Shown one piece after another: positions 1,970 through 56,413 of a stretch of 64,000 nt of DNA (its first letter is position 1; each line of letters starts with the position of its first letter). The position numbers and the translations under genes are program-made. This DNA is from Litoditis marina (lineage: Eukaryota > Nematoda > Chromadorea > Rhabditida > Rhabditidae): positions 9,559,904-9,623,903 of the forward strand of contig OZ038439.1 in NCBI GenBank assembly GCA_964036275.1, written 5' to 3'. The notes under the pieces were generated by a model that did no database searches, had not been told where the DNA came from, and saw nothing but the letters and a program-made list of their open reading frames with translations.

Positions 1970-4900
1970 TTATGCAGCTGGGTTGGAGGGTCCCTCCGAA
2001 ACCTTTTCTGGCGCACGCAGCTCGATTTCCTTCAGGGATCCCTGGAATATAATAAACAACCAATTAATAAAGACAAACTATTTATTTATTGTTATTATTA
2101 TTATCATGACGATGAACTATACAATGCAGCAGTTCACATAGGTATGAACGCTGAAATAATTCTCATCAACACAGATGTGAAATCATAGTTTTTGTTTGTA
2201 TCAACTTTATTGAGTTATTTTTTCGCGGATTCAGAAAGCGAACTTCACTGAAAGTGGAAAAAAAATTCTGTTTTAACCAATAAAACTTCAGAAAAAAGTT
2301 TTGCTATAGATTGGAAAATATGGAGATGATGACAAAATCAAAAAAAACTATCGTCTCGCATCGCCCAAACTACGTTGCTCTCAGATAGAAAACATAATAC
2401 AAATTAGGCCACGCCCACTCAACTCACATTGTAAAGTCGTGGTTTTCCCTTCTCCTTAATCAGTCCCTCCATAACATAGGACAGCAGAGATGCCTGCAGT
2501 CCCAGGTTACAACTAGTGACGGTAGGTTTACCAGCCACGTAGCCGTTGGATGTCAACCCTAAAAAAGCGGGGTAATTTTGATCTACCGTAAACGAATTAC
2601 TGGCTTTCAGGATGTTACAAGGTGTATTGTAGTTTGATCTCGATACACACCGTAACCAACAGGTAACCGTTTAAGGTTTAACCTGAAGAATTTGTAGTTT
2701 GAACTTCATTAGGGATTTTACCGGAAAATGCCGAGATGAAACTACATGCACTGTTAGTCTTCTAGAAACATGGCCGTTGTCAACCCTGGAGATGAATACT
2801 TGAATACCATACATATGATGTACATTCTAGGTTTCGCTCTTTCTAAAACAAATCTTGACGATCTGATCCACCCCCCCCCCCCCCCCGTGTTTCTAGTACG
2901 ACCCCGTTGCGTGTCGGTCGCAATTCGAATACACGTTGTGACGTGTGTCGAAATCAAACTACAACATTTGGTCGCTACCTAGATAACGCAACGTAGTGCA
3001 GTCTACGTCTTCTTACGTGTACGTCTTCAATCAATGGAAAATTCACAAAACTGGTAAATAAGAGGTATTTAGGAGATATTTTACATTTCTCGGGCATGTT
3101 TTGTTAGCGGTATGAGAAATAGTCTAGATTACAACTGTTTCTGAACAGATTTCAACATAGATTTCAGTTTTTTCCTAGATATAAATGTTTGCTTACATTT
3201 GCTAATTTCTTCCTCCGACTTCAGTGTGTTGTCCTCATTGAGCATCTCGATGGAAGGGAGGTTATTGAAGCCAGGGATAGAACTACCGGGCACTACTGCA
3301 AATAACTATTGTGCTGTAGAATATAAATTATTACACAAATAAAAATTTCGTGCGCTATTTGTTGAAAAACCAGCGAAAGTCGGTTGACGTTCAAATGTTC
3401 TCCCAGCCTAGCTCGCAGCAGCGTCCTGGATATCGTTTTGCTCCTGGAACGGAAATTTTTGCTCACAAATACATTTGGAACTAACTCACCTTTAGGATCA
3501 AGAGTTGTGTTCTGTCTTCCCTCAAATTGACCACGAATTCGGGTGTCCAAGAAATTGTACTGTAAATACAGCTATGCAGTCATTACTTTCTCTTGGGTTT
3601 TCGAGGCAATCTTGGAAGTGTGAGAAATTTCTCAGAGTGTGACTCTGCGGTCTCTAATCCCTCGCCACTCAATCCAAAATTTGACAGATATTCAATTTAG
3701 ATCCTTTCTTAGAACACGCGCTGTGTTTTACGGAAAGCCATTTATAGTCGAAACAGTTCAGGAACCGAACAATTTCGTTCAAACGGCATATTCGTTGCAA
3801 CACGGTAATTATTTGTGACGCTTGTTACTAACTGTAACGCTGGAAAATGAACGCTTTTTCAATGAGATTGGGAAATTACTGAAAAAACTGTGCGGAACAG
3901 AACAGTAACTGCAACAACTTCTGTACGCAACGTTGTGTTACAGTAAAGCAACAACCCATGTCCTGAGTTACCGTTTACTATTCAAAACACTGGGCCTGCA
4001 CTGCGAATTCGAAAAAAGACGGGCGACAAAACATTAATAATCCGTATAGTCGTCGCCAACGGAAACGCGGGAGGGTACTGTATATCTCACTTTCCGCTGT
4101 GTACGCACACATGTCTTCGATCCCAAAGCTTGCCGGTTATGTGTACCTATAGCGCAGTGGTTAGCGCCCTGCTACGAACATTTTGCTCGCAGGTTCGATT
4201 CCGGCGATTCCGACTTGTCACTCGCGCCTTCATAAATTGCGCAATCTGGCTTTGCTCAATTTTTTTGCGCAGTCTGGTTGTGGCGGATCGTGTTTTGGCC
4301 AACCATCCTAGAATCTATAAACTTGGCACCCACTATACGGTGTCAATTTATGTCGGCCGTTGTCTGAGTTAACTCACCTGATCGGTCTTTTCCATCATTT
4401 GTTTTCCATTCGAATCTTCTTTTGTCAGTTCCTCAAAAGTGATATTGTGCTCCGGAAACTGGTCATCAGCCACCCAGTTTCCTTTCTGAAAAAAACTTTT
4501 CTGAAAATTTCTCTGAAAAAGAACTTTTATAAACTCAAAAATGTGTGGCTCAGGGAGGACGGTGGATAAAAGCCCAAACGCCCGACTCAACTGTTTTTTA
4601 TTATGTTGAATGAATTTTTGAATTTAAATCCATGCGTTACATACGGTAAACTGAATAGAAATGTTCAATCAGTTTGTCGTAAAAAATCGTTAAGAAAGCC
4701 AACTGATTACTGTAGGACGTCACGAACGAATTGAACAGAGTATACTATATACTGTTAGACAACTGCACAGTACGTGAACAATGTTAAACACAGCAGAACT
4801 CAAATACGTGCGATGACAAAGTACACGATTCTTAATTAGAATACTAATTTCACGTGACTATTCAATTTCCTTCTAGTGTACCCACTCTTTTCAGTTTGAA

Positions 4901-7900
4901 GTCGTCGGTAGCTACTTCGAATCCTTCCCTTTTCCACTGTTCGAATCCTCCGTTGATCACGGACACCTTGTCGTGACCGTACGACTGGAAATAATGACTG
5001 TTGGAGTCAAACTCGCAACTCGACTCGACTCGAACAAACTTGAACATTTTCTAGTCGAGTCAAACTCGAGACTGGGTTTTTCCCGAAACTCAAAACCTTT
5101 GAGGATCAATATGTGAAAATTCGAATTTATGGCTTCAAAAAATCGAAAAAAAAACTCAAAATGTGTATACTATTGACTTGAAAACTTGAAAACTCCATTT
5201 TTCGAACCCGATTTCGCTCAAAACTATTGAGCAGCTCTGAACTCCTCACTGGTATTGTAATTCAAAAAGTTATGGGTTTGAAATAACGAAGAAAGTAGGA
5301 GAACACAAAACACTAATATATCCAATGGGATACTGATTCCCCAACATTTACGCTTTATTAGGTTATTTTAATTGAACAAAATATAATTGTGTCACTAGGA
5401 CTTTTGGATGGTGGTATGATTAGGTTAATGTGCTCAATAAGAGATGTTCTCTCAAACTGTTTCGATCCAGGCGGCTTAGCAATCAAAAGTTCATGAGATC
5501 ACCTCATGAGCTATTGGCACGAATTTCTCATGAGATTCTATTGATTTCTATGCTACAACATCAAGAGTTCACGAGTAGCTCATGAGGTATCTCATGAGAT
5601 ACTCATATGAACTTCTCATGAGGTTGGGCGGTTTGCTACGCCGCCTGATTCAAGACGGTTTTGGGTTTTCTCGGAGGGTTGGATCATTGCACTGCGAACT
5701 CTATACTTCTAACAAATCAACAACAGCTTGATAAGGAAATCCAAAACCGTCTTGAATCAGATTCGAAACGGTTTGGAGTACATCTCTTACTGAGCACATT
5801 AACTTAATCATTTACGTTTTAGTTTTTACAATAATGTTTCGTGATAAAAGCTTTCAGTCACACCTAAACCAGCTAGTGTTCTCACATTACGTTTCAAATT
5901 TTTCAGAGCATTAAAATAGGTTCTTGAAACCAACATATTAGTAATTTTGTGTCAATACAAGGTACCTTGAATAGCCATGCCAGTTTTGCTGGGAACACCA
6001 TTCCCCATAGTGGATTTCGTCCATAGAAGATCAGATGCTCGCCCTTATCAATTCCGAGAAGCTGAATGAAATTGTTGAAACAGTTATATGTAATACATAA
6101 CAAAACAATACAATGCAATGCAAGTTTTATTTCACTCTCTTCCCGATTCTCAAAACAATGACTTTTCCTTATTTTCTTAAGTTCCGAATGTAGAATAGTC
6201 TGCCCGTCACAGAAAAGAGTGGACTGTTCAATTCCGCGAATGGAGGAAATTGATGGTGACACAGAAAAACTCATAGCTACCGTACCTGTACGTATTTCCT
6301 TCCGTTCCGGTGGGTATTGGGCAAATCGTTGATATCTTTCAAAGTTACAAAGCTGAGTTGAACAAAGTTTCAGCATGACGAAGTTAAAGTGTACGCTTCA
6401 ACTTTGTTAGTTCAAAATAGTTCGTTACACAGCCTGACTAATAGCTACAGTACTTACACAGCAAAAGCTAATAGCTACCGTACCTGCACATATTTCTGGA
6501 ATAGCTCCGGAGGATATTGGGCGAATCGTTGATATTGAGATGGGTACATGGCGGCGTCGAGGCTCATGTGAACCGCTTCCGGGATGTGACCAGAGAGGTA
6601 CAACTGTTTTGATCTGAAGCTGTTTCGTTACATTTTCAAGGCTTTTTTTAGGTCTAGAATTTTCACTGGATATTAAAACGTTTTAGAGGTTCATCTGTAG
6701 TGTTTTACAAACTCAAGTATAGTTTTTCTACAATTCGATCGCAACTCACGGGCTATCAATTGTACTGAGAAGTTTGAAGTTCTCGTATCTCTCCTTTTCG
6801 AATTGCATTAGAAATTTTATTGTTATAAGGGTTTAATCTGTATTTTAGTTGAAATTATTCAGCTCAAGTCGTGTAAATTGTATAGATAGTAAAGCCAATG
6901 ACAGACTCAAACGGTACATGTTGGTATATGTTGCTGTTTTTGTAGTTTGATCTCGTTTGATCAAAAACTCACGGGCTATCCATTGTAGTTAGAAGTTTGA
7001 AGTTTCCGTATTTCTCCTTTTCAAACTGACGCCATTCCGGTTTCGGACCTACCGTATACGAACAGTCGAGCAGACGAACTCCATATCTGCAATGGAAATG
7101 GTCAAGGAAATTTTTTGAAATATGTAGTTTGTAGCGTAAAGGGAGTAATGTAGTTTGAACTCGATACTTACCATAATTTACGAATTTCGACCGATATAAG
7201 TAACGGGACAAAACTAAATACATTGTACAGGCTGCTCTAGAAAGAGCGAACCGTATACTGTTAGTCAATTGCACTGTCACGTGAAACAGGTTAAACACAG
7301 CAGAACTCAGAAACGTGCAACGACAAAGTGCACGATGCCTCATTGGAACGCTTACTTTACGTGACTATTCAATTTGCTTCTATATGAGGTGACCAGAGCA
7401 GAGTTGTACTTTGATATGAAATTTGACCTCTTTGCGAATTTCGAAAGCAAGGAATCTGGATCAAACTACAAACAAAGTGGGGCACATGCCGTGAAAAAAT
7501 GCTTCCGGATTGTATAGTTCACACCATTCCTACCGAGACTCCTACAGTAATCTTACAAACTTTCCGAAGGCTGTTGTGAAGCTGAAAATGGAGTTCATGG
7601 AAAATGGTCTCGTATGTTTACTCTACGTGAGAAGGAGAATGTGGTACTAGAATCTTAAATTTCTCCGATCAAAAGTAAGCGAGCAAAACGGCTTGGAAGT
7701 TTCGAAATCCTACTGTAGGAGTCTCAGTAGGAATGAAAAAGACTATAGCCCCTATTTATGCAGAAAACAATCATTGTTTATTTTACGATTCTATCTCCTG
7801 GGACCATTCTGTGACCACTCCACTCTTGATGTTTACATGAATCTCTCGTTTGATAAGGAGACCGCGAGAATTTTCGTTGAAGTTCAGAGTGGGACCACCA

Positions 7901-38872: not shown

Positions 38873-41800
38873 ATGTTATCTGTGCTTTTTCTGTGTTGTG
38901 TACTATGTATTTGTTTTGCGGATACCCTAGAAGAAGGTGAGATTTTCAATAAAACTTTAAAGAGGTTGTAATAAATATTGTATTGTAAAACACCCAGTCA
39001 CGATCAGATTTGTGACTTAGCCTTCCTTTTTTAATTTTTACGTTATTTTTTTATAGAAAACCCAGAAGCTATCGTGGCCCGTGCCCCAAGGACGTGTTCC
39101 CAACTGAACTGTGGCCCCAACTGGAAATGTTTCCGAGCGGCTCCCAATCAGGTACGACTTCTCTAAGAAGTATAAACATATAATCAACTGTAATTCTTGA
39201 GTTTTTCTTGAGTTTCTGAGTTTGATCTACTTTTCGTAGAGTCAAAACAACCTGGGAAAGTTGAAAGATCGCGGAAAGAAATTTGACTGGATTTGAGCAG
39301 AGAAGTAGCGTATGTTTGCGGAGATGCAGGCTAGGATCTCAAAGTGTTCTCTTCTGACTCAAAAAGATCGCTACTGTACAATAAATTTTAGATTCACGTG
39401 ATGATGTGTAGAATATAAAGGTACACGTAAAGTCTGAAATGCTGTGTTTGCAGCTTCATCCCATTCTTTTGTAGTTGGGAAAAGTAAACTCAGCTTTGTT
39501 CAAAGTAGCCCACTTAAAAACCCTTCTAGGACGCTCGCTGTGTTCCAACCAAGAGATGTTCCCAAATAAAATGCAAGATTGGTCAACGGTGAGGGAAATT
39601 CATAATATACTAGTAGTAAATTGAATAGTCACGTAAAGCTAACATTTTAATGAAGCATCGTGCACTTTGTCATTGCACGTTTCTGAGTTATGTGTCACGG
39701 TACAGTTGACTAACAGCCTTATTCTGACTGCTTTTCAACTTGGTTATCTAGATAGTTTCTAATATACCATTTGGTCCATTTGGACTATTTGCTTAGTATA
39801 GATTAGTGCGAGTTGATAACAGTTTATAAAGATTAATCATCATAATTTATTTTGCGAATGCTGCGTTCATTTCACGTATTTGAGACTTTACGAATAAATA
39901 TCAGATATCAGAAAAATGCTGATTGTCGTCGTTACGCGTTTGTTGTTTCAGATTTGCTCATCCATTGAATTTTTTATGGTTACCTTCACATTCAATGAAA
40001 CAATTTTTAACTATAAAAAGGTAAAGTTTCAATCGTTCGCATATTTTAATCTGAAATTAAAATATTTCCAGTTGTATTAATGGAGGTCCCGGAAAGGATG
40101 CCAGATGTCAGCATCAAACGTGTCAAGCACTCAAATGTTTCCAGAAATCGCTAGTGTGAGTCTTCCTTTCATCAGTAGAAGTTTACTTGTATATTTGTTT
40201 TCTTTATTGATCGATTTATTATTTATGTGTTGGTACTGAAAGTGGATGACAATGGAACGGAGAAAACATCTAAGGGTGCGTTCATACTTCGAGCCTCCAG
40301 ATCGGGAGGCAGCGGCCCGAAAGTGCAAACTATGCGTATCGATTGCGCATCCCAAGCACCTGGGTGCTCAATCGATACGCATAGTTTGCACTTTCGGGCC
40401 GCTGCCTCACGATCTGGAGGCTCGAAGTATGAACGCACCCTAAACGTACCACGTAAACAGCCTCAAAACATAAGTTTGTGATTATGTTCAAGAACGGCTT
40501 CAAAAGCGAACATGTTCAGTTTTGGATCGTGCGGAGCGTGAAACGATGTTCGGGCATTGAAAAAAAATCTATTAGAGTTTCTCCGGGATTTTTGGACCGT
40601 TTTTCTATTAAAAAAAGGAAAATAGAGAAAATAAACTGTGGCTCTAGACCGATTTCCAATAGGTGTAGTTTCCCACCCAAGAAAGTGTCTGTGTTTAGAT
40701 GTCAAAAACTATCTACCGGTGCTCGATGTCGGCAACCCAAGTCATGTTCGCAAGTCAAATGTGGGCCCGCCTTCAGATGTGCGAGACCGAGTGTGAAACA
40801 GGTAGTTTTGAGATTCTTACATACTTTATTTAGATAATATTACTCTCTTTTCTTAATTCCTAGTTTGACGACGGTAGTTTTGAACACATTGTATACTCCA
40901 TTTACACAATACAACCTCTTTTCTTACTTCTGAGTACGAGTGTTAGAACATACCGGTACCTTCATCCTATCCTGCGTCTCTCGCTTGGTGCACTATTTCG
41001 CGACATCGCAACGTGGTGTGAGAGCAGAAAATAGCGCATGTTCGAGGAGACGCAGATGGTGATAGAAATATCGGGATGTTTATGAATCGATCATGAGTAT
41101 AGTCGTCGCCAACGAAAAGGCGGGAGGGTACTGTATATCTCAATTTCCGCTGTGTACCGACACATGTTCCCTATTCCGAAGCTTGCCAATTAACGACTAT
41201 TGTAGCGCAGGGATTACCGCCTGGCTACAAAACTTTTGCTCGTAGGTTCGAGTCCGGCGAGAGACAACAATTTATACGTTTGGCACGTCCTATATTTCAG
41301 GATGCTCGTTGTGTGGCTACTAGAAAATGCCGTGATTTGAAATGTCTTCTCGGTCAGAGGTCAGTTTTTTCATACAAAATCAATTTTTATGAAAAAAAAA
41401 TTCGATTTTAAGGTTTATTGTGTTTGTAGTTTGATCAATCCGAAATAGTTGGTGAATGACGATTGAACGGCTACAAATATTACATTATATCTATTTCAAG
41501 TTATATCTATCAACTCACAAACAGTTCAAAAGTCAAGTCATCGCACGTGCGAGGTCTCATAAATGAATTTCTCTAGGTGTAGCAATGTTCAGACAGAGGG
41601 GGGTCGTAGTAACACGTTGTTCATTTCAAATCCCTTTCTTCAGATGTGTACCTGGTGCTCCCCACAAACATGCCAGATGTGTGAAAAACACCTGTGCAAG
41701 TTTGAACTGTACCAACCCCGCTTATAAGTGAGTTTCCTAAACTTTTTTGTATCTGTCTTGAAGTTGTGTGTAGAGGTTAACATCAATGACTGTGTACGAT

Positions 41801-44800
41801 TTGCTCTATTGATTGTGTGTATTCCTGCTCATTTCACCTACTGTGAAGTGTACAGTTACTACAATAGTGACACCAAGAGTGAAACTAAACCAAAAAGTTG
41901 AGCATTACATTTTCAAAGACGTTGACCTCCACATTTTTCCTAATAGTTTTATGTTGTGAACCGCAATTTGCAGCTTCAGAGAGCATTCTAAACATGATAA
42001 TATCTGGGTTATGCTTGATTCCCACGAGTGCTCAGCAGAAATTCCAAATAGGGACTGGAAAGATCTGTAATAAAACTACAAACTCAGCAGATCAGACCAA
42101 CGTATAGCGTTGTCTGCCTTTCCCGATGAAGAATATAGCAGATTTGTCAAATTCCCATCAACTAATATAAAAAAAGGATTTGTTAGTCTAGTCAGAATAG
42201 CGCTTCTGTATTATGTTCATCAACTTTTCACCACGTTCTCTTTTGACAATCTTTCACGTTGTGGTTTCATTATTACACACTGTGTAACGATAGTTTGATT
42301 GACTTTATTTGTAAATTTTGCCGTATCCACCGAAACCAAACTCCACCGAAATGTCGCCACATCCAATTAAACATCTTGCCACTTCGTGTTTGATTCAAAC
42401 AATAAAACCAACAATGTTAACTTTCAGATGTGTAGTACATCCTTCTGGTTCGATATGTAGAAAAACGTTGGTTTGTTCTGACTTCGACCCTCCATGTGAA
42501 CATTTTTTCGGCACCCATTGCGTCCCTGGAAAACCACACCAAGATGATCATTGCGATGGGTGTGAGTTCACTTTTCAAATTAATATAATTTCTAATATAG
42601 TTTTTGTTGCACCGTGGCGGACACCGTACGGTCAATTTGGTAGGGGATGGGCTTAGGTAGGTGATCAGCTCATCTGCGCATCCTTGAGCTACACACTGTC
42701 TCGTCTGCTGGCAGATAATCAACAACCACTCCCCCGCAAAGCTCGATCAATAGAGCTCATCGCAGTCTTTCTTGGAGATTTAGAGAGTAAGGCCTGTTGT
42801 ATATGAAGGTTTCTTTTACCCCCATATGCATCCTTTTGCCACTGGAGGAACCAGCAAACATCGGAATGCATGCATTAGAATGTCACGCAACCGGTTGTCA
42901 ATCAGCATGAATTTTTAAGCATCGCATAACCAGACAGGAGATTTCATAACGAGTTGACAACAAAATTGGAAAACATCAATACACATTTGAAAACATTTGT
43001 CTTTGAGTGTTGCGGACTGCGATTCTAACAGTCGACGTCAGATGTTGATGTTTCGCAGGTCACAGGAATATTAAAATAGGAGGTATCCCTGGGGACGCGT
43101 AAAATAAACATTGTATTCGGCTTAAACAAATGTGAGCATAAATAAGAACAGATACTCGCAGAGCATCAATGCATTTCAAACAAAAACAACGCAGAATATC
43201 TTCGGCACATCTATTAATAGCAGTTACACAATTCCATGAAATATTAACAGATCTATTCATGAATGCAACCAGATAAGTTTGAAAGTTTGAATCGAAGGTC
43301 GGTGATAATTGAATGCTAGGATAACTACTCTTTCATTCTCAGACCAATTTTTCGTGGACTTTTCTTATAATTTTCCCATTTCAATTTACGGTTCCATAAA
43401 ATACAAAATTCGCAGATAGCCATAAAAGAAATTTTGCGAAGAGTTCACGTGGTCAACCATCTGACATAAATAAGCAAGATGAGCTTCCAGCTGACGATCT
43501 GTCATTTTGACATGTATTTTTGTTTTCCTACACATATTTCTGAACCGCTAAGTTCAAACGAACTGGCATCAGCACCATATTTCGAACTTGAAGAAGTGAA
43601 ATTTCAACTACAAGTCAATTCATTCTCATTTATGATTATAATGCAGACAGATTTATCTTTATGAAGTTGCTGGTGAGGTAGCCAAAAAAATAGAATTTCC
43701 GTCAAATCAGACTGCAAAACGCGCATCGTATGCATTTCTTCTCAGGCATGACGCGTTTATTATTAACCACAGTATAATAACTCAATCATACTTTTACATT
43801 TTGAAATTTTGAAAAATGGAAAAGTCATGTATTTAGTTCCGAGTTAGGGGTTTTACACCTTACATACACAACGTTCAAAAACGCATAAATACTAAGCAAA
43901 AATGGAACCAACAAAATTTGGGTTACTGTTCTCGTGAAATGTACAAATCTTTTATCACAGATTCAGTTGACGTAAATTGGGGGGTGTTTTGAATAGGATT
44001 TCGTAAATTTGTCGAGATTCTTGAAATTTAGTGTGTAGGTAAACTCACGTGTTTCTGAGGTAACGGAGCAACACAAGAAGTTGATACTTAGATGAATGAT
44101 TGTGGTTTTTGAATGTTTACAGAGTCGATTAATCAGCTCAAACCTCCCTATTTAAGAGAAACGGTCCATTAAAATATCTCTGAATAAGTGAAACTATGTC
44201 TCATTGTGACCAAATTCTCGTCATAGCCTGTTCTCCTACAACAGCAAAATTTTCGAATATGTCCGTTAACGCATACATCAAACACAGCTAAGTGGAATGA
44301 ATTGTTTGTTATTACCTTCTTTTCGTAGAGCGCTTCAGTTTGTAACACCAGAAAAGCAGTACTTAAACTGGGTATAATCATGTGAAAGCTTTCAGACATA
44401 GTTTACTTAACAATACACTGCCTTAACGTTTCCTATCCGCGCGGAAGAGATTGAAAACATTTTGTCCAAAATTTCTCCGAAAACTGATCAAATTTGTATT
44501 TTGCGAAGCTGTACATCAATTCAGAGAACTACCAACTCTTGTTCCAATTCCGAAGATTCAAACTGACTGATTCGTAGAATACCATGAATAGACCAAAAGA
44601 AGATAGCTACGTTACTCGTTTACAGAATAAAGCTAACAGTCTTCTTAAATTTGCAGTGAACGAACACAACTACTACATGTACGATTCTGATTTTATTTTT
44701 ATTGTATTTATTCTACACAAAATGTACAACGGGATAAATTGCCAATCTTTCCCAGGTCTTTCTTGCATGTTTCAATGTCGGAACATGAGATTTTTTTTGC

Positions 44801-47800
44801 GAACGTAGCAGATTTATAGTTTTCGCAACTTGACCCGATCAGATCGACATTTATTATACCAAAACTTAGAAAGCTCCCATCAACCGGCACAGAGTAACGA
44901 CAAGGCTCTGAGCATTGTGGAATCACCATCTGTATATGATACGATGTCTGGATAAATTGGTATTCATACAAAAGTGCTGAACTATCATGGAGAGACCTAA
45001 CCCAAAAATTATGAGAGTTTGCGTGAATTCATTGAACCGGGAGTAAATAATGTTTGACGCCACCTTCACACGCTGCTTCGCTATGACGAATTTGATATAA
45101 CCAGTACCTGCGCGACAAGCTGCGCGGATCTGTTTTCAGCGTAACATGGCCAAATTTAGATTTTCAATCATGTTGGAATACAAATCTAACGAATATGCAT
45201 CAATCAAATCGAGATCTAATCAGTAATACGGCTAGGCAAAGTCATGACACGACTTTGTAAATCAGTTTCGCCACTCTAAATGTCATGATACAGGTTTCGA
45301 GAAGTTTCAAACCAAATTTAAACCAAACAGTATTACATCTTGATAGCCAGGGAATGCCTTTGCGTATCAGTTCCGCAACTTATAATTGACAATGACAAGG
45401 GATTTATTCGATTTAAAACCTGATTGATAGTTGTTATAAAACGACCAAAACCTTCTGAGCCACATCGGTTACACGTCTTACAACATTTTCATGTCATGAT
45501 AAACCGGTCCATATATTAATTGCTAACATGGAGCAGTATAAAACTCAGAACAATATAAACTTTCACAGAACAACTCAAGTCCAACTAGTAAAGACAGCTT
45601 CCTAATGTTTTCGACGATTCGTCGTTCAATATTGAGTTCCAGCGAATTTTAGGCAGAAATGTTCAACAACAGAAACATGCCAAACACTAAAGTCAGGTTG
45701 TCTCTCATTGGATATAGCGATTCACCCCTATTCAGGTTTTGAGTTGGTCTTTAACCCGATAGGTTTTGGAAAAACGAATGACTTTTGCTTTTTATCTTAC
45801 ACCATATTCTCACAAAATTAAACGAAAAAAAAAGGTAATTTTCATACTTCGAATTAGTGACTCGACTTCAATTTCCGTGGAAAGCGAAATATTTATCTAT
45901 TGTGCTTCCTAAATTTTGATGGTGAGAAGTGAGACGATGGTGACTAGATAGACCACCTTCAAGGTGATCATTCTAACATATTGATTTAGTGTCTAATCAC
46001 AGTCGAGCTACATAGTTGCCAACTGCCTAAGCATAGTGTTAATGATTGACACGTAGGGCTGGTGATCACAACTGGGTTCAGTGACATGATGTTTAAACTC
46101 GAAAGTAATATTTTTATCAAACCTCGCTAATGGAAACATTGATGAGTTGCTTGTATTTAATCGTTCTTCTCGGTAGAGAACTTCGACAGTTTCGAAAATT
46201 AGTGTAGACACTTAAAGAGACATTCACCCTGTATTTTGTGCGCCTCACATCAATGCGCCTCATAGTCAGTTCCATGCATGGTAGATAAATCACGGTGTCC
46301 ATCTGCGTAAAGAGCTGATTTTTATCTTCCAGTCTCATAGAAAAAAGTACTAAAATACTTGCTGAGTATATAAACTTTTATGATAAGAAAACCGGCGAAA
46401 TACCAGAAAAAGCCGAAACTGCTAGCATCACAGCGATCAAACGCAATTCATCTATTATTCGTTAAATTGTTGTTGAGTTTCTAAGTCGAATCTTCAAAAT
46501 GCATAGAACTGAGACTGAATAGACCACGGTTCCTCAATTCTCTCTCAAAACACATTGTACTGTAAGTCTTCGCACATCATCAGCACGATCCAAGCTCAAG
46601 TCACGTGACAGGAACGTGTGTTTAATACAGAACAATGTAGAGTTCTATAGTATCTGCTCTATAACAACTCTAGTCTCCTCATTTGAGTTATTCATCTCTG
46701 ATCCACTAATTGTTTTCACTCTTTCCATGCGTAATGTAGGTTGTTCCCGGGTAGTTTATCTCTAAGTTCAGAGTTGATGCCGACTGTCCGAATAGATGGA
46801 GAACTTGTCGAGAATAGTTAGCCCTATCTCCATAGATATTTGCAGAACGCCAATAAAGCTGGAATAAGTTTTGAACATGTTGGATTTTTCGAAAACGTCA
46901 AATAGTCTGATAGCGACATTTGTAGCAGAACGGAACAGAAACAGAGTAGAACTATATTTTTTCTTGGTAAGATGCCCATGCAAAACCTGCAGCAAGCTGC
47001 CAATAAGCCTACTTGGAAAATTTGGGAGATACCATGCCTTAACAATCAATTTTGCTTTTTTCACAGCTGGTGTTGTATCAATGCTGGAAAATGTGAACTC
47101 ACATAACACATTGAATTACTTCAATAATGTGATTTCTTTCAGTGTACAATCAAAAATACTCATCCCGCTCTAGCTCATGCAGAGTGAATAGCTCGGGCAC
47201 TGGTACATCGTTGAGAAATACGAAATAATCGAGTTTCGATTATTAAATTTCGGTATTCGATCTCTGTGTGTGATGCGAATGAAGCCTGCCAGCATATTTT
47301 GAACCACTACAGGGGTTGAAGCCAGTTTTCGGTTGAAAGTTTGTCAATCTACTCACCGAATTAGTCGAATATCGAGACTTACTACCATTACACTAATCGG
47401 GCGGAACACCCCTAATGAGTTTCATTCGATACGCATCACGTGAATTGTTTTACACCAGCGCTACAAGTCGTGTTGAACGAAAATGTTTTAATGTTTGCTT
47501 CAAGAGTGCGAGATTCCGGTAACGTTGATTCTTTTGTAGTGAGAGAGACCATTAGTTTTGACGAGGTTGTAAAAATCCTGTCCTCTCGGGGGTTTTCTAC
47601 GGTTGCACAATGGTATCGCGCAAGAAAGCGTTCCACAATGTCTCCACTCAGTAATGGTCACCCACCAGTGACACTTCCGAAATATTGATTTCTCGAGTTT
47701 CGAAATCGAATCTCACAAAGAAAGAATAGATAAGGTAATTGAATTTCTTCCTCCAGACACTTTCAAGTGGGCCAAGAAAGCCAATTGAAAACTCTTGAAA

Positions 47801-50800
47801 GCCAAAACTTTTTTACCCGGTCACTGGGAGAGTCGAGAGCAGTTTACATAATGCTCATGACTGTTAGAAACTGTAAATACAGCATAATATGAATGGTTTG
47901 AAATATTGACATTGAGCTCTTCGTGAGTATCGTAAAGATCAAACTACAAACAGTTGAAAAAAGGTGTGTTCTGCAATATATGTGCTAGAGTATAGAATTA
48001 TGCTCAACTCTAGAAAAACAAGTTCATGTCTTGATAGATGTTATAGAAACTTGTGATGAGATAAGAAAAAAGCCTAATATCACAAGTGCAAAGGAGGTAA
48101 AAACTATTTTTTACCCTATCACTGAGTACGATCACTTTCGAAATATCGATTTCATATAAAACACAATGAATGACCACGACTTTAGCAAATGCGAAAACAC
48201 ATGTGTTCATGTTTGACACGTTTAACACGTTTCGTCATTCTGCGAGACGTTCTAACACCTCTTATTGAGGCCGCCCAGAGTTCGTTTAGTTGGATTAGTT
48301 CATCAACTTGAGGGGCGAAATAGAGAATGACCATCTAGTTCGAAAATATTGGAGAGACAGTGAATAATAGAGCGTGATATATGCACGCTGAAAATGGTAG
48401 AAATATGCTACGACGAAATTGTTACGGACTTAATTCGAAGTTCATGGTCAAAAATACTGAAGAGAAAGTGAATATTACTCGTGAAATATGCATGAGTGAT
48501 GGAAAAATACGTTTCAATAGCAGTCTTATCTGGTCGAAACTCCTCTCAGTATGCTTTCGGGCCAAAATTTCTGCTGTGTAGTAGGGGCGGGGCTCACGCG
48601 AAAGCATACTGAGAGGAGTTTCGACCAGATAAGACTGCTATTGAAACGTATTTTTCCATCACTCATGCATATTTCACGAGTAATATTCACTTTCTCTTCA
48701 GTATTTTTGACCATGAACTTCGAATTAAGTCCGTAACAATTTCGTCGTAGCATATTTCTACCATTTTCAGCGTGCATATATCACGCTCTATTATTCACTG
48801 TCTCTCCAATATTTTCGAACTAGATGGTCATTCTCTATTTCGCCCCTCAAGTTGATGAACTAATCCAACTAAACGAACTCTGGGCGGCCTCAATAAGAGG
48901 TGTTAGAACGTCTCGCAGAATGACGAAACGTGTTAAACGTGTCAAACATGAACACATGTGTTTTCGCATTTGCGAAAGTCGTGGTCATTCATTGTGTTTT
49001 ATATGAAATCGATATTTCGAAAGTGATCGTACTCAGTGATAGGGTAAAAAATAGTTTTTACCTCCTTTGCACTTGTGATATTGGGCTTTTTTCTTATCTC
49101 ATCACAAGTTTCTATAACATCTATCAAGAGATGAACTTGTTTTTCTAGAGTTGAGCATACTTCTATACTCTAGCACATATATTGCAGAACACACCTTTTT
49201 TCAACTGTTTGTAGTTTGATCTTTACGATACTCACGAAGAGCTCAATGTCAATATTTCAAACCATTCATATTATGCTGTATTTACAGTTTCTAACAGTCA
49301 TGAGCATTATGTAAACTGCTCTCGACTCTCCCAGTGACCGGGTAAAAAAGTTTTGGCTTTCAAGAGTTTTCAATTGGCTTTCTTGGCCCACTTGAAAGTG
49401 TCTGGAGGAAGAAATTCAATTACCTTATCTATTCTTTCTTTGTGAGATTCGATTTCGAAACTCGAGAAATCAATATTTCGGAAGTGTCACTGGTGGGTGA
49501 CCATTACTGAGTGGAGACATTGTGGAACGCTTTCTTGCGCGATACCATTGTGCAACCGTAGAAAACCCCCGAGAGGACAGGATTTTTACAACCTCGTCAA
49601 AACTAATGGTCTCTCTCACTACAAAAGAATCAACGTTACCGGAATCTCGCACTCTTGAAGCAAACATTAAAACATTTTCGTTCAACACGACTTGTAGCGC
49701 TGGTGTAAAACAATTCACGTGATGCGTATCGAATGAAACTCATTAGGGGTGTTCCGCCCGATTAGTGTAATGGTAGTAAGTCTCGATATTCGACTAATTC
49801 GGTGAGTAGATTGACAAACTTTCAACCGAAAACTGGCTTCAACCCCTGTAGTGGTTCAAAATATGCTGGCAGGCTTCATTCGCATCACACACAGAGATCG
49901 AATACCGAAATTTAATAATCGAAACTCGATTATTTCGTATTTCTCAACGATGTACCAGTGCCCGAGCTATTCACTCTGCATGAGCTAGAGCGGGATGAGT
50001 ATTTTTGATTGTACACTGAAAGAAATCACATTATTGAAGTAATTCAATGTGTTATGTGAGTTCACATTTTCCAGCATTGATACAACACCAGCTGTGAAAA
50101 AAGCAAAATTGATTGTTAAGGCATGGTATCTCCCAAATTTTCCAAGTAGGCTTATTGGCAGCTTGCTGCAGGTTTTGCATGGGCATCTTACCAAGAAAAA
50201 ATATAGTTCTACTCTGTTTCTGTTCCGTTCTGCTACAAATGTCGCTATCAGACTATTTGACGTTTTCGAAAAATCCAACATGTTCAAAACTTATTCCAGC
50301 TTTATTGGCGTTCTGCAAATATCTATGGAGATAGGGCTAACTATTCTCGACAAGTTCTCCATCTATTCGGACAGTCGGCATCAACTCTGAACTTAGAGAT
50401 AAACTACCCGGGAACAACCTACATTACGCATGGAAAGAGTGAAAACAATTAGTGGATCAGAGATGAATAACTCAAATGAGGAGACTAGAGTTGTTATAGA
50501 GCAGATACTATAGAACTCTACATTGTTCTGTATTAAACACACGTTCCTGTCACGTGACTTGAGCTTGGATCGTGCTGATGATGTGCGAAGACTTACAGTA
50601 CAATGTGTTTTGAGAGAGAATTGAGGAACCGTGGTCTATTTAGTCTCAGTTCTATGCATTTTGAAGATTCGACTTAGAAACTCAACAACAATTTAACGAA
50701 TAATAGATGAATTGCGTTTGATCGCTGTGATGCTAGCAGTTTCGGCTTTTTCTGGTATTTCGCCGGTTTTCTTATCATAAAAGTTTATATACTCAGCAAG

Positions 50801-53800
50801 TATTTTAGTACTTTTTTCTATGAGACTGGAAGATAAAAATCAGCTCTTTACGCAGATGGACACCGTGATTTATCTACCATGCATGGAACTGACTATGAGG
50901 CGCATTGATGTGAGGCGCACAAAATACAGGGTGAATGTCTCTTTAAGTGTCTACACTAATTTTCGAAACTGTCGAAGTTCTCTACCGAGAAGAACGATTA
51001 AATACAAGCAACTCATCAATGTTTCCATTAGCGAGGTTTGATAAAAATATTACTTTCGAGTTTAAACATCATGTCACTGAACCCAGTTGTGATCACCAGC
51101 CCTACGTGTCAATCATTAACACTATGCTTAGGCAGTTGGCAACTATGTAGCTCGACTGTGATTAGACACTAAATCAATATGTTAGAATGATCACCTTGAA
51201 GGTGGTCTATCTAGTCACCATCGTCTCACTTCTCACCATCAAAATTTAGGAAGCACAATAGATAAATATTTCGCTTTCCACGGAAATTGAAGTCGAGTCA
51301 CTAATTCGAAGTATGAAAATTACCTTTTTTTTTCGTTTAATTTTGTGAGAATATGGTGTAAGATAAAAAGCAAAAGTCATTCGTTTTTCCAAAACCTATC
51401 GGGTTAAAGACCAACTCAAAACCTGAATAGGGGTGAATCGCTATATCCAATGAGAGACAACCTGACTTTAGTGTTTGGCATGTTTCTGTTGTTGAACATT
51501 TCTGCCTAAAATTCGCTGGAACTCAATATTGAACGACGAATCGTCGAAAACATTAGGAAGCTGTCTTTACTAGTTGGACTTGAGTTGTTCTGTGAAAGTT
51601 TATATTGTTCTGAGTTTTATACTGCTCCATGTTAGCAATTAATATATGGACCGGTTTATCATGACATGAAAATGTTGTAAGACGTGTAACCGATGTGGCT
51701 CAGAAGGTTTTGGTCGTTTTATAACAACTATCAATCAGGTTTTAAATCGAATAAATCCCTTGTCATTGTCAATTATAAGTTGCGGAACTGATACGCAAAG
51801 GCATTCCCTGGCTATCAAGATGTAATACTGTTTGGTTTAAATTTGGTTTGAAACTTCTCGAAACCTGTATCATGACATTTAGAGTGGCGAAACTGATTTA
51901 CAAAGTCGTGTCATGACTTTGCCTAGCCGTATTACTGATTAGATCTCGATTTGATTGATGCATATTCGTTAGATTTGTATTCCAACATGATTGAAAATCT
52001 AAATTTGGCCATGTTACGCTGAAAACAGATCCGCGCAGCTTGTCGCGCAGGTACTGGTTATATCAAATTCGTCATAGCGAAGCAGCGTGTGAAGGTGGCG
52101 TCAAACATTATTTACTCCCGGTTCAATGAATTCACGCAAACTCTCATAATTTTTGGGTTAGGTCTCTCCATGATAGTTCAGCACTTTTGTATGAATACCA
52201 ATTTATCCAGACATCGTATCATATACAGATGGTGATTCCACAATGCTCAGAGCCTTGTCGTTACTCTGTGCCGGTTGATGGGAGCTTTCTAAGTTTTGGT
52301 ATAATAAATGTCGATCTGATCGGGTCAAGTTGCGAAAACTATAAATCTGCTACGTTCGCAAAAAAAATCTCATGTTCCGACATTGAAACATGCAAGAAAG
52401 ACCTGGGAAAGATTGGCAATTTATCCCGTTGTACATTTTGTGTAGAATAAATACAATAAAAATAAAATCAGAATCGTACATGTAGTAGTTGTGTTCGTTC
52501 ACTGCAAATTTAAGAAGACTGTTAGCTTTATTCTGTAAACGAGTAACGTAGCTATCTTCTTTTGGTCTATTCATGGTATTCTACGAATCAGTCAGTTTGA
52601 ATCTTCGGAATTGGAACAAGAGTTGGTAGTTCTCTGAATTGATGTACAGCTTCGCAAAATACAAATTTGATCAGTTTTCGGAGAAATTTTGGACAAAATG
52701 TTTTCAATCTCTTCCGCGCGGATAGGAAACGTTAAGGCAGTGTATTGTTAAGTAAACTATGTCTGAAAGCTTTCACATGATTATACCCAGTTTAAGTACT
52801 GCTTTTCTGGTGTTACAAACTGAAGCGCTCTACGAAAAGAAGGTAATAACAAACAATTCATTCCACTTAGCTGTGTTTGATGTATGCGTTAACGGACATA
52901 TTCGAAAATTTTGCTGTTGTAGGAGAACAGGCTATGACGAGAATTTGGTCACAATGAGACATAGTTTCACTTATTCAGAGATATTTTAATGGACCGTTTC
53001 TCTTAAATAGGGAGGTTTGAGCTGATTAATCGACTCTGTAAACATTCAAAAACCACAATCATTCATCTAAGTATCAACTTCTTGTGTTGCTCCGTTACCT
53101 CAGAAACACGTGAGTTTACCTACACACTAAATTTCAAGAATCTCGACAAATTTACGAAATCCTATTCAAAACACCCCCCAATTTACGTCAACTGAATCTG
53201 TGATAAAAGATTTGTACATTTCACGAGAACAGTAACCCAAATTTTGTTGGTTCCATTTTTGCTTAGTATTTATGCGTTTTTGAACGTTGTGTATGTAAGG
53301 TGTAAAACCCCTAACTCGGAACTAAATACATGACTTTTCCATTTTTCAAAATTTCAAAATGTAAAAGTATGATTGAGTTATTATACTGTGGTTAATAATA
53401 AACGCGTCATGCCTGAGAAGAAATGCATACGATGCGCGTTTTGCAGTCTGATTTGACGGAAATTCTATTTTTTTGGCTACCTCACCAGCAACTTCATAAA
53501 GATGAATCTGTCTGCATTATAATCATAAATGAGAATGAATTGACTTGTAGTTGAAATTTCACTTCTTCAAGTTCGAAATATGGTGCTGATGCCAGTTCGT
53601 TTGAACTTAGCGGTTCAGAAATATGTGTAGGAAAACAAAAATACATGTCAAAATGACAGATCGTCAGCTGGAAGCTCATCTTGCTTATTTATGTCAGATG
53701 GTTGACCACGTGAACTCTTCGCAAAATTTCTTTTATGGCTATCTGCGAATTTTGTATTTTATGGAACCGTAAATTGAAATGGGAAAATTATAAGAAAAGT

Positions 53801-56413
53801 CCACGAAAAATTGGTCTGAGAATGAAAGAGTAGTTATCCTAGCATTCAATTATCACCGACCTTCGATTCAAACTTTCAAACTTATCTGGTTGCATTCATG
53901 AATAGATCTGTTAATATTTCATGGAATTGTGTAACTGCTATTAATAGATGTGCCGAAGATATTCTGCGTTGTTTTTGTTTGAAATGCATTGATGCTCTGC
54001 GAGTATCTGTTCTTATTTATGCTCACATTTGTTTAAGCCGAATACAATGTTTATTTTACGCGTCCCCAGGGATACCTCCTATTTTAATATTCCTGTGACC
54101 TGCGAAACATCAACATCTGACGTCGACTGTTAGAATCGCAGTCCGCAACACTCAAAGACAAATGTTTTCAAATGTGTATTGATGTTTTCCAATTTTGTTG
54201 TCAACTCGTTATGAAATCTCCTGTCTGGTTATGCGATGCTTAAAAATTCATGCTGATTGACAACCGGTTGCGTGACATTCTAATGCATGCATTCCGATGT
54301 TTGCTGGTTCCTCCAGTGGCAAAAGGATGCATATGGGGGTAAAAGAAACCTTCATATACAACAAAGGCCGCATTCATACTTTCTACGTCGGCGTTCAACG
54401 CCGGCGTTAATAGTGAAGACAACATACGTATTGATTGGCGCCGGCGTTAACGCCAATAAAATCGATGCGTATGTTTTCTTTACATTAACGCCGGCGTTAA
54501 ACGCCGACGTAAAAAAGTATGAAAGCGGCCTAAGTCTTCATAGAGCAACGAAACTCATATATAATTTTTGTTTCTATGTGTACTCTTGGCGTCGTAGTTC
54601 TACCCAAACCGGAAAGATCTCAGGTTACTATCTTTGGCAAACTCCCAGAATTGTTTATGTGCATAGGATTTGCACGATATTTCCTGAATTCAGATCACCA
54701 GGCAGCTCATAAGAGCATCTCACAAGTTGTAGAGCTTGCTGCCCCGCCTAATTGTATTTATGACCGCAAAGAAAGACGGAGGTTTGGGTATGATATCACC
54801 AAACATTCATTCTAGTTTAATTTCGATACACGCCGAAACAACGGAAATGAACTACAATGACAGTTGGATTGATCAACATACTTCGAAAAGAGCGAAGCCT
54901 ATATTTGCTCTCAACAAAGAACCATGTCATAGTGAGCTCAACTGGGATTTGGTTTTTAAAAAGTTAGAGTACTTTTTTTAACGGTTATTTGAGTTTACAA
55001 AGTATGGTCATTGGTTTTCTCAGGTGACATCCAGGTGGATGTTGTGTGGGACTTCTGTGGCGGTTGCGAGAAGACGTGTGAAGAGCCGAATCCGCCCTGC
55101 AATAAACCGTGTACGCCGACGGAACCGAATTGCCTGTGAGTGAAAGACAGGGCAAATTTCTTCCCGAACCGACTCTTCTCGAACCAAAACCGAACCGATT
55201 CTTCCCGAACCAGTTGGTTCGGTAAGTAACCAATTTGTTTGCGTACTCAAACCGACATGAAACCTAACCGAACCCCAATAAACGTTACGCAGTCGACCAG
55301 TTTCCGCATTAATTACATGAATTGGTTCGGTTCCAACTTTGTTGGCCCAAATTTGGTTCGGTTCTAGAACGAACCAACTGGTTTGGGAAGAATCGGTTCG
55401 GTTTTGGTTCGGGAAGAGTCGGTTCAGGAAGGAATTCACCAGTGAATTTTTCTATATAAAGTCTTCATGACCCCGAAAAAGGCAATTTGATTGAGCGATG
55501 TGGGGCGAACGGTCGAGTATTCGCCAGCAGACGAAATAGTGTGTAGATCAAATATACGCAGACCTGCTGGCCGCTCGCCAAATCCGCCCCCTACCAAGTT
55601 GATCGTACGCTGTCCACAACGGTTTGACAAAATCTATATTGCCCGCGTACTCGTCGACAATTATAATGTGATTTTGGAATTTCAAGTCAGTTCTGAGAAT
55701 GTGAGGTTATGAGATTTTATTGACCAACTCAAGGAAATGTAGTTAATTACAAAACAGTGATTATAAAGTAGACTGGTGTGTACAGATATGAAATCACGAG
55801 GAAGGTCTCATGTCATTTGATGAACCCTCTGTTTACTGTTTCATTTTTGATGTGAAATGACTTTTTTCCATAACTTTCTAAAAAAAATTCACGCAAAGAC
55901 TAACATTTTCTGCCTATTTGCGCAATCCATTTGAGAACTGCGCTGAAATTCACTTATTTTGATTCTGCTCTGACAGATCTCATGGGACTTAGCCGAGGAA
56001 AATCTGGTACCAAGCCTTGCGGTAACAAACTCCGGACTAAGTACCCCCCTAAGTGCCAAATTTCAAAAACAAAAATTCTTCATCTTTCAACAAAAAATGA
56101 AGAAATATATGTATTTAGATCAAATTTTCTCATGAATTTTCATTTCTTCACTCAAAATTCAGTTTTATCAACTCAAAACCTCAGTTTTGTCGCATTGAAG
56201 ACTCAAAAACTGGCACGTGGCAATGATTCTTCGAGCCGGGCCTGAGCCAATAAGCCACGCCCCGTTATATCTCCCTCTAACTATCCCAGGTTCTGTCTGA
56301 GTGTAACATAAATAGCATATTGTGTTTCGGAAAAAAATATTTTCAGGTGTCGAGAAGGCTTCGTGCGCGGTCCAAACAGCCTCTGTATTCCATTGGCCAA
56401 CTGTCCTCCTTGA
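38873..56413 (+). CDS. Secreted multi-cysteine-repeat TIL-domain protein, paralogue B, with a giant intron
   Basis: Ten in-frame exons: 38873-38936, 39057-39151, 39530-39588, 40072-40155, 40699-40801, 41301-41359, 41644-41727, 42428-42561, 55024-55135 and 56347-56413 (861 nt, 286 aa). Exon 1 encodes a signal peptide (MLSVLFLCCVLCICFA). Its ATG directly abuts an ATTTCAG acceptor, suggesting SL trans-splicing or a 5'UTR intron. Two rounds of the Cys module follow: CGPNWKCF / CVPTKRCSQIKCKIGQR / CINGGPGKDARC, then CGPAFRCA / CVATRKCRDLKCLLGQR / CVPGAPHKHARC. Then comes CSDFDPPCEHFFGTHC and a C-terminal TIL domain (CGGCEKTC ... CREGFVRG ... CIPLANC). Intron 8 spans 12,462 bp and contains the 11.57-kb foldback element; the same intron is 2.2 kb in paralogue A. 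The flanking exons are intact and in phase, so the gene still looks functional. Confidence 0.87.
39604..39722 (-). mobile_element. TIR element with CACGTGA ends, copy 5
   Basis: Reverse-oriented copy (AGTAAATTGAATAGTCACGT ... GTTGACTAACAG) just after exon 3 of paralogue B. Confidence 0.65.
40273..40440. mobile_element. Tourist/Harbinger-like palindromic MITE
   Basis: TAA target duplications at 40270-40272 and 40441-40443 enclose TIRs of about 70 bp with one mismatch, starting GGGTGCGTTCATACTTCGAG. The overlapping ORFs on both strands come from the hairpin. It lies in intron 4 of paralogue B. Confidence 0.85.
41098..41294 (+). mobile_element. tRNA-promoter-bearing SINE-like element, copy 2
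   Basis: Same layout as copy 1, with B box GGTTCGAGTCC. Its 3' end (CCTATA) lies 6 nt from the start of exon 6 of paralogue B, so the element supplies most of the sequence just upstream of that 3' splice site. Confidence 0.75.
42590..42745 (+). repeat. Dispersed repeat, left member of an inverted pair
   Basis: TAGTTTTTGTTGCACCGTGG through GTCTCGTCTGCTGGC is found inverted at 55,490-55,650 with about 75% similarity by eye. The pair frames the giant foldback inside intron 8 of paralogue B. Confidence 0.55.
48560..48598. other. 39-bp asymmetric centre of the foldback
   Basis: GC-richer spacer (GTAGGGGCGGGGCTCACG) between the two arms. It would be the hairpin loop. No protein motif. Confidence 0.8.
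50049..50390 (+). other. Longest ORF in the foldback arm (113 codons), also present inverted at 46768-47109
   Basis: An open frame with hydrophobic and basic stretches (for example KAKLIVKAWYLPNFPSRLIG) and no family I recognise. The opposite strand is open over 100 codons across the same stretch, so neither is clearly coding. It is identical in the other arm. It could be an exon of an unknown element protein or chance. Confidence 0.25.
52187..52450 (+). other. Cysteine-containing ORF in the foldback arm, also inverted at 44708-44971
   Basis: An 87-codon frame with seven cysteines (CSEPCRY, SSCENYK, SCSDIETCKKD, SRCTFC). The start would be TTG or upstream splicing. No family recognised. It does not match the Cys modules of the host gene. 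Conserved by arm identity only. Confidence 0.25.
54366..54530. mobile_element. Tourist/Harbinger-like MITE split by the giant foldback
   Basis: TIRs of about 45 bp start GGCCGCATTCATACTTTC on the left and GGCCGCTTTCATACTTTT on the reversed right. The right TAA is at 54531-54533. The left TAA plus GGCC is at 42788-42794, on the far side of the foldback. Joined, they give a TAA-flanked 165-bp MITE. Confidence 0.82.
55148..55437. mobile_element. GGTTCGG-rich inverted-repeat element, copy 2
   Basis: CAAATTTCTTCCCGAACCGA at the left mirrors AGTCGGTTCAGGAAGGAATT at the right. Arms of about 70 bp consist of AACCGAACCGATTCTTCCCG blocks. In intron 9 of paralogue B. Confidence 0.7.
55490..55650 (-). 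repeat. Dispersed repeat, right member of an inverted pair
   Basis: Reverse complement of 42,590-42,745 (GCCAGCAGACGAAATAGTGTG region). In intron 9 of paralogue B, so the pair straddles exon 9. Confidence 0.55.

Follow-up and report, generated by a model that had tools for sequence, protein, structure and literature searches.

A mobile element that is almost entirely palindrome in Litoditis marina, and its possible kinship with Polinton/Maverick-type elements

The window, a 64,000-nucleotide stretch of the genome of the nematode Litoditis marina, contains a palindrome of 11,569 bp at positions 42795-54363. Ungapped comparison of its two arms (42795-48559 and 48599-54363, 5,765 bp each) revealed exactly six mismatches, at arm positions 860, 3723, 5204, 5234, 5281 and 5390, so that the arms are 99.9% identical and inverted repeats make up 11,530 of the 11,569 bp. 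The features of the locus are:

42789-42794, no strand: left target site duplication AAGGCC, directly flanking the palindrome; a second copy (C17, 8.46 Mb) has ATTATT instead
42795-48559, + strand: left arm of 5,765 bp, starting TGTTGTATATGAAGG (arm comparison, repeat finder)
43804-44177, + strand: copy of a dispersed repeat (arm positions 1010-1383), present in both arms (mirror 52981-53354), with 65-84% matches elsewhere in the genome
44407-44410, + strand: TTAA without insert in the left arm (mirror 52748-52751); copy 2 carries a 468-bp insert here in both arms, and the right arm in the window is identical here
45833-45949, + strand: 117-bp block (arm positions 3039-3155, mirror 51209-51325), 87-90% identical to related palindromes
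46925-48559, + strand: core of the left arm (arm positions 4131-5765), common in whole or in part to nine other palindrome centres at 84-91% identity
48560-48598, - strand: non-palindromic spacer of 39 bp, with a 21-bp core CCTACTACACAGCAGAAATTT on the - strand
48599-50233, - strand: core of the right arm, mirror of 46925-48559 (arm comparison and genome matches)
48599-54363, - strand: right arm of 5,765 bp, ending CAACA (arm comparison, repeat finder)
54364-54369, no strand: right target site duplication AAGGCC, directly flanking the palindrome
54370-54530, no strand: remainder of a 165-bp TAA-flanked inverted-repeat sequence (GGCCGC...GCGGCC), probably a MITE, split by the palindrome; its first GGCC lies at 42791-42794, and the flanks were joined to show the empty site

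An independent repeat finder recovered the same arms. Between 38000 and 60000, just two other inverted repeats of 60 bp or more were found, with arms of 80 and 67 bp, so the palindrome lies far beyond chance expectation. These two (40273-40441, 96% identical arms, and 55155-55436, 94%) are probably MITEs. The large palindrome ends in TGTTG...CAACA, with AAGGCC directly on either side. It is real: equal arms of 5,765 bp with six differences, the 39-bp spacer, the termini and the flanking duplication had all been described in the original prediction and were reproduced by the ungapped comparison.

The arm holds little that resembles a gene. Among the stop-to-stop frames listed for the arm, none is longer than 115 codons; the original prediction had given 113. 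A Pfam profile scan of all six frames of the left arm returned no family at E-values up to 0.001 or up to 0.1, in agreement with the claim that the element has no recognisable transposase; no polymerase, integrase or other known family was found in the arm. Likewise, no Rfam family reached its gathering score within 42700-54500, and no tandem repeats were found in the arm.

We searched the genome (261.8 Mb in 522 contigs) for further copies. The first 400 bp of the element have five matches: the two ends in the window, the two ends of a second copy, and a locus on C3 at 1694402. Copy 2 (C17:8459623-8473632, 14,010 bp) lies on the same contig, 1.13 Mb from the window copy, and has the same ends, but its flanking duplication is ATTATT. 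Of the third copy, on C3, one degenerate arm is present, which reaches arm position 4101 in pieces of 95-97% identity; an array of 41-bp repeats (C3:1685864-1688724, L009) abuts the point where this arm stops. Since the two full copies carry different 6-bp duplications (AAGGCC and ATTATT), the element is mobile: it inserts as one unit and duplicates 6 bp of its target. Further support comes from the insertion site in the window, where the element sits inside the left end of the 165-bp MITE-like sequence, and joining the flanks restores GGCCGC...GCGGCC with TAA on both sides. The prediction of a single mobile unit consisting almost wholly of inverted repeat is thereby borne out, and copy 2 excludes one of the outcomes named as its refutation, that there is no second copy anywhere. 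No autonomous partner with TGTTG...CAACA ends was found in the genome; the terminal 120 bp were found only at the three loci of the element itself. A 1.45-kb insert in the left arm only of copy 2 was considered as a coding core and rejected, because further copies elsewhere, and an apparent 4-bp flank, AGTT, mark it as a dispersed repeat in its own right.

The two arms of the element change together. An alignment of the four arms of the window copy and copy 2 contains 18 variable ungapped columns, nine of which distinguish the copies while pairing the arms within each (aabb) and nine of which are private to one arm; none of the 18 pairs arms across copies (abab or abba). In copy 2, an insert of 468 bp plus TTAA, with ends AGGGACCG...CGGTCCCT, occupies the same place in both arms, and in both arms of the window copy the TTAA is uninterrupted. 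Two separate insertions or two precise excisions are possible, but a single event copied to the other arm is the simpler account. Simple chromosomal gene conversion, without extrachromosomal copies, also explains the identity of the arms.

The inner part of the arm is not restricted to this element. All or part of arm positions 4131-5804, the inner 1.67 kb comprising inner arm and spacer, recurs at at least nine other pairs of inward-facing arms at 84-91% identity, mostly about 85% (the best 39 of 722 first-look candidates were scored). These centres lie at C3:13.457, C3:23.456, C16:20.970, C181, C163, C18:6.630, C4:29.831, C4:29.843 and C473, which with the window element and copy 2 gives 11 palindrome centres. 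Short second arms occur at C163, C4:29.843 and C473, and some of the centres may be related to one another as haplotypes or tandem duplicates (C181/C163, C16:20.970/C473 and the C4 pair). Arms were compared with each other at five of the centres: the window element, copy 2, C3:13.45, C3:23.45 and part of C16:20.97. The 117-bp block at arm positions 3039-3155 is also common to related palindromes.

The spacer is conserved together with the inner arm. Its core CCTACTACACAGCAGAAATTT has 21 matches in the genome at up to two mismatches, compared with none for the reversed control. Twelve of the matches are exact and fall at nine of the 11 centres, the window included, with three tandem copies at C16:20.970 and two at C473; C3:23.456 and C18:6.630 have no match at up to two mismatches. 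Six cores differ by one base (C3:16.379, C4:14.699, C16:31.411, C16:31.413, C16:35.092 and C16:35.135) and three by two (on C2, C17 and C19). At C16:20970292-20970374 (three units) and C473:6509-6560 (two units), the loop is repeated in tandem with 31 bp per unit, as if it slips.

One of the related palindromes, palindrome A (C3:13451755-13464170, 12,416 bp), has ends of a different kind. Its arms differ by 12 mismatches and 3 gap columns in 6,191, its ends are AGT...ACT (AGTAGTATACTACC), and the 6-bp duplication AATCGA flanks it on both sides. With the window element it shares, in the outer ~3 kb of the arm, only the dispersed repeat and short matches. Four of the nine centres (A itself, C18, C181 and C16:20.97) have matches to the terminal 400 bp of palindrome A on both sides, and four more (C3:23.45, C163 and the two C4 centres) on one side only; C473 has no match. 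Four left ends (A, palindrome B at C16:20.97, C3:23.45 and a one-armed locus on C126) begin with AGTAGTATACT in four different flanks, the 6-bp duplication having been checked among them for palindrome A. The original prediction had set the element apart from Polintons on the ground that they have far shorter arms relative to their length or carry long coding cores, a contrast that does not hold in this genome: 6-kb arms occur here in an element with Polinton-type ends. Its picture of a mobile unit with long inverted repeats holds but is incomplete, given that the element is not isolated and its inner arm recurs, wholly or partly, at no fewer than nine other centres.

The longest frame listed in palindrome A does not exceed 124 codons, and its alignment with the core of the window element showed gaps of mixed length and, by eye, no coding pattern. 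A small acidic frame (MEILKDPLRF...) is open at C16:20965377-20965799 (L048 and L045) and has no indel in either L055 or L056; palindrome A and the C4 copies have it in broken form. Intron-split genes, which had been suggested as an alternative content, find no support in the window element; the related palindromes carry this one small open frame. A pair of core fragments 12 kb apart (C16:22622290-22635641) was considered as an autonomous element and set aside: it offers no proof of a parent, and its first 6 kb (L057, L058) yielded no Pfam match above the cut-off. Adjoining one of these fragments, about 4 kb from an RVE match, is an intact Cys-rich frame of 252 amino acids (L057:827-1585, C16:22623026-22623784), 196 residues of which have one unnamed homolog among the 23 length-similar candidates scored (89% identity over 53%).

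The terminus of palindrome A leads to loci that carry polymerase sequences. About 110 bp of it match at C16:36390110 (+ strand, 86%) and at 36399273 (- strand, 89%), with a PF03175 (PolB) match in between; the enclosed frame has 931 amino acids with one stop in its second piece. A second, shorter match to the terminus lies at 36399321, and the right end of this element (C16:36390110-36399273) is uncertain. Palindrome A thus appears to share its terminus with an element, known from such matches, that encloses a polymerase. Genome-wide, PF03175 has 111 matches, several per gene (91 of 123 candidates scored), compared with none in the 14 control genomes, and open frames bearing it reach 1,271 amino acids. 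C16 has three sites where RVE integrase and PF03175 matches occur on the same strand, 7.9-8.9 kb apart (150 of 242 RVE candidates scored); the RVE profile also matched in 6 of the 14 control genomes. It does not single out Polintons, and LTR retrotransposons typically give RVE matches too.

Three loci have PF03175 matches in inverted pairs, whose centres coincide exactly at C3:21336455 and C1:3488007 and almost do so at C4:52934744. As judged from these profile matches, by which the polymerase loci are known, the palindromic form is probably not confined to elements devoid of genes. The core of the window spacer has no match at up to two mismatches at the centres of the three pairs, so these may be palindromes of another origin.

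Two further spacer-bearing relatives, L059 and L060, allow a view of the junction between spacer and second arm. When L059 and both sides of L060 are aligned with the window element, 146-156 of 210-215 columns match to the left of the spacer and 28-29 of 32 within it, and identity falls to 44-51% just past CGAAA, where the second arm of the palindrome starts. Random 100-mers give a mean identity of 0.49 and a maximum of 0.56. The spacer is bounded by an inverted microhomology, TTCG/CGAA in L060 and TTTCG/CGAAA in the window element. The drop in identity and the microhomology at the edges look like the signature of fold-back copying, for which we infer the direction of change. Both relatives are themselves located within wider inverted repeats, a 99% inverted copy of L059 lying ~42 kb away, and they could be derived rather than ancestral. 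Moreover, their sequences diverge from one another past CGAAACACC, and the boundary may therefore be the end of a module. L060 (C16:31411650-31413650) contains two spacers facing outward around a 1.2-kb insertion-like segment, all within an inverted repeat that extends up to the edge of the segment analysed.

Linear viruses such as adenovirus can form snap-back or symmetric recombinant genomes, which are analogous to fold-back inverted duplications. A limited search of the open-licence PMC literature found nothing on symmetric adenovirus recombinants. Fold-back inverted duplications among human CNVs, according to PMC3907307, likewise consist of inverted copies around a unique spacer with 2-8 bp of inverted microhomology at its edges. 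The human spacers that were sequenced measure 766-70,466 bp, in contrast to 39 bp here, and here the product is a transposable unit that has spread and kept its symmetry.

How does the window element compare with known transposons? Polintons end in AG...CT, and a non-autonomous member would lack the PolB and RVE genes. Like Polinton/Maverick elements, the window element makes 6-bp target duplications (AAGGCC, ATTATT); it also has relatives with the same centre and AGT...ACT ends, in a genome with many PF03175 and RVE matches. In contrast to them, it ends in TGTTG...CAACA and is wholly inverted repeat instead of terminal repeats around a coding core. The six frames of its arm contain neither a protein-primed PolB nor an RVE integrase, nor any other Pfam match, and its terminal 120 bp, confined to its own three loci, are not shared with a gene-bearing Polinton. 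Its TGTTG terminus bears a weak likeness to the Polinton-type terminus AGTAGTATA, agreeing at 7 of the first 9 bases; 17, 134 and 46 of 2000 shuffles score as well against three relatives. Because its own ends are not Polinton ends, we do not file the element as a Polinton but regard it as a Polinton-related palindromic satellite that works in a fold-back-like manner. Fold-back elements such as Drosophila FB and Galileo are mobile, with long inverted arms and little or no coding sequence, as in the window element. FB arms are built of short repeat arrays, and the duplications of FB and Galileo are longer than 6 bp, whereas the window element has no tandem repeats, 6-bp duplications and a core in common with Polinton-ended palindromes.

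Taken together, we favour, at a probability of roughly 0.55, the reading that the window element is a non-autonomous whole-palindrome transposon, a satellite of the Polinton/Maverick-type elements of this genome, which arose by fold-back and is moved by an RVE-type integrase supplied in trans. We read it as a satellite of Polintons because core and spacer are common to palindrome centres with Polinton-type AGT...ACT ends. On this model, a single-armed linear molecule would fold back at the inverted microhomology TTTCG/CGAAA around the 39-base loop, and a polymerase would then copy the arm back to its end, giving a full palindrome. The folded-back molecule would carry the same integrase recognition sequence at both ends and so be a complete substrate, whose ends an RVE-type integrase acting in trans would join to the target, leaving the 6-bp duplication. 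Such a duplication is the typical product of RVE integrases according to PMC12220804. The identity of the arms would be restored when extrachromosomal copies form hairpins and are repaired, or else through arm-to-arm gene conversion in the chromosome. Relative to the Polinton-ended relatives, the outer arm and the TGTTG terminus would have been exchanged and the core and spacer kept.

The strongest competitor, which we consider somewhat unlikely, holds that the unit is a fold-back element from an unrelated cut-and-paste superfamily that leaves 6-bp duplications, and that it captured a Polinton-related core, acquired its arms by inverted duplication and gene conversion, and uses a transposase of its own that we do not see. 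The confinement of the TGTTG...CAACA terminus to the loci of the element fits this account, as does the near absence of common sequence with palindrome A in the outer ~3 kb. So does the end pattern, in that TGTNR characterises Ginger DNA transposons, which have an RVE-like transposase, and Gypsy (PMC2836005). However, Ginger duplications are 4 bp according to PMC2836005 (5 bp in TDD-4/5), with TIRs of 40-270 bp in Ginger1, as against 6 bp at both full copies here and no Pfam family in the arm. In addition, a symmetric swap of both outer arms around a kept centre requires a fold-back or conversion step anyway.

It is very improbable that the palindrome is a chromosomal inverted duplication kept by arm-to-arm gene conversion, as in the palindromes of sex chromosomes, and not a transposon. 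Conversion would be expected to give 99.9% arm identity and concerted changes, but a second copy that shares the ends yet has another 6-bp duplication, the MITE-like end as insertion site and the nine related centres refute this explanation as a complete account; conversion may nonetheless be the means by which the arms are kept identical. Least credible of all is an artefact of library or assembly, in which a hairpin adapter was missed or haplotypes were joined in error: artefacts are known to take the form of perfect palindromes, and some of the related palindromes lie on small contigs that may be haplotype copies, but the flanks differ, three palindromes have 6-bp duplications, the arms differ at six sites, the 1.45-kb insert is in only one arm of copy 2, and a fold-back read would mirror the flank as well.

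Returning to the satellite reading, we tentatively put forward a wider version, which is a good deal less certain than the reading itself. The genome may host a lineage of palindromic Polinton satellites in which the displaced strand of a linear protein-primed element snaps back at the conserved loop to give a symmetric, two-ended transposon. Each cycle would reset the identity of the arms and permit swaps of outer arm and terminus; palindromy would then be a replication strategy, and gene-bearing Polintons with inverted polymerase pairs would be its helper version. To our knowledge, the way in which Polintons replicate once they have left the genome and before they re-enter it has not been established. 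In elements that are wholly palindromic, with a fixed loop, paired arm changes and exchangeable termini, a hairpin or snap-back step would have left a trace that can be read, and this genome, with several copies and its pattern of insertions in one arm or in two, could serve as a direct test. If transcribed, such long non-coding palindromes would yield double-stranded RNA and may bear on small-RNA silencing in nematodes. Fold-back transposons and Polintons are known already; a limited search of the open-licence PMC literature, by title and start of abstract and by exact phrases, found no whole-palindrome Polintons, and the combination of a whole-element palindrome, a conserved loop, arms that change together, swapped termini and relatives with Polinton ends appears new within that search.

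Several other arrangements in the genome deserve mention. Two RVE matches with equal 362-amino-acid frames, at C16:3004843 (- strand) and C16:3014874 (+ strand), form an inverted pair ~10 kb apart and may belong to a palindromic element. At C16:35092244 (+ strand) and C16:35135093 (- strand), core arm and spacer are inverted 43 kb apart with a PF03175 match between them (C16:35108926-35109774), possibly a giant Polinton with long terminal repeats. Two polymerase blocks in direct orientation, 25 kb apart, at C2:748393-781513 represent either a tandem Polinton or a segmental duplication. Finally, the genome contains arrays of SL1-like RNA genes, many ~1.36 kb apart (best score 57.7 bits, gathering score 75; 50 of 85,271 candidates scored), compared with none in the 14 control genomes.
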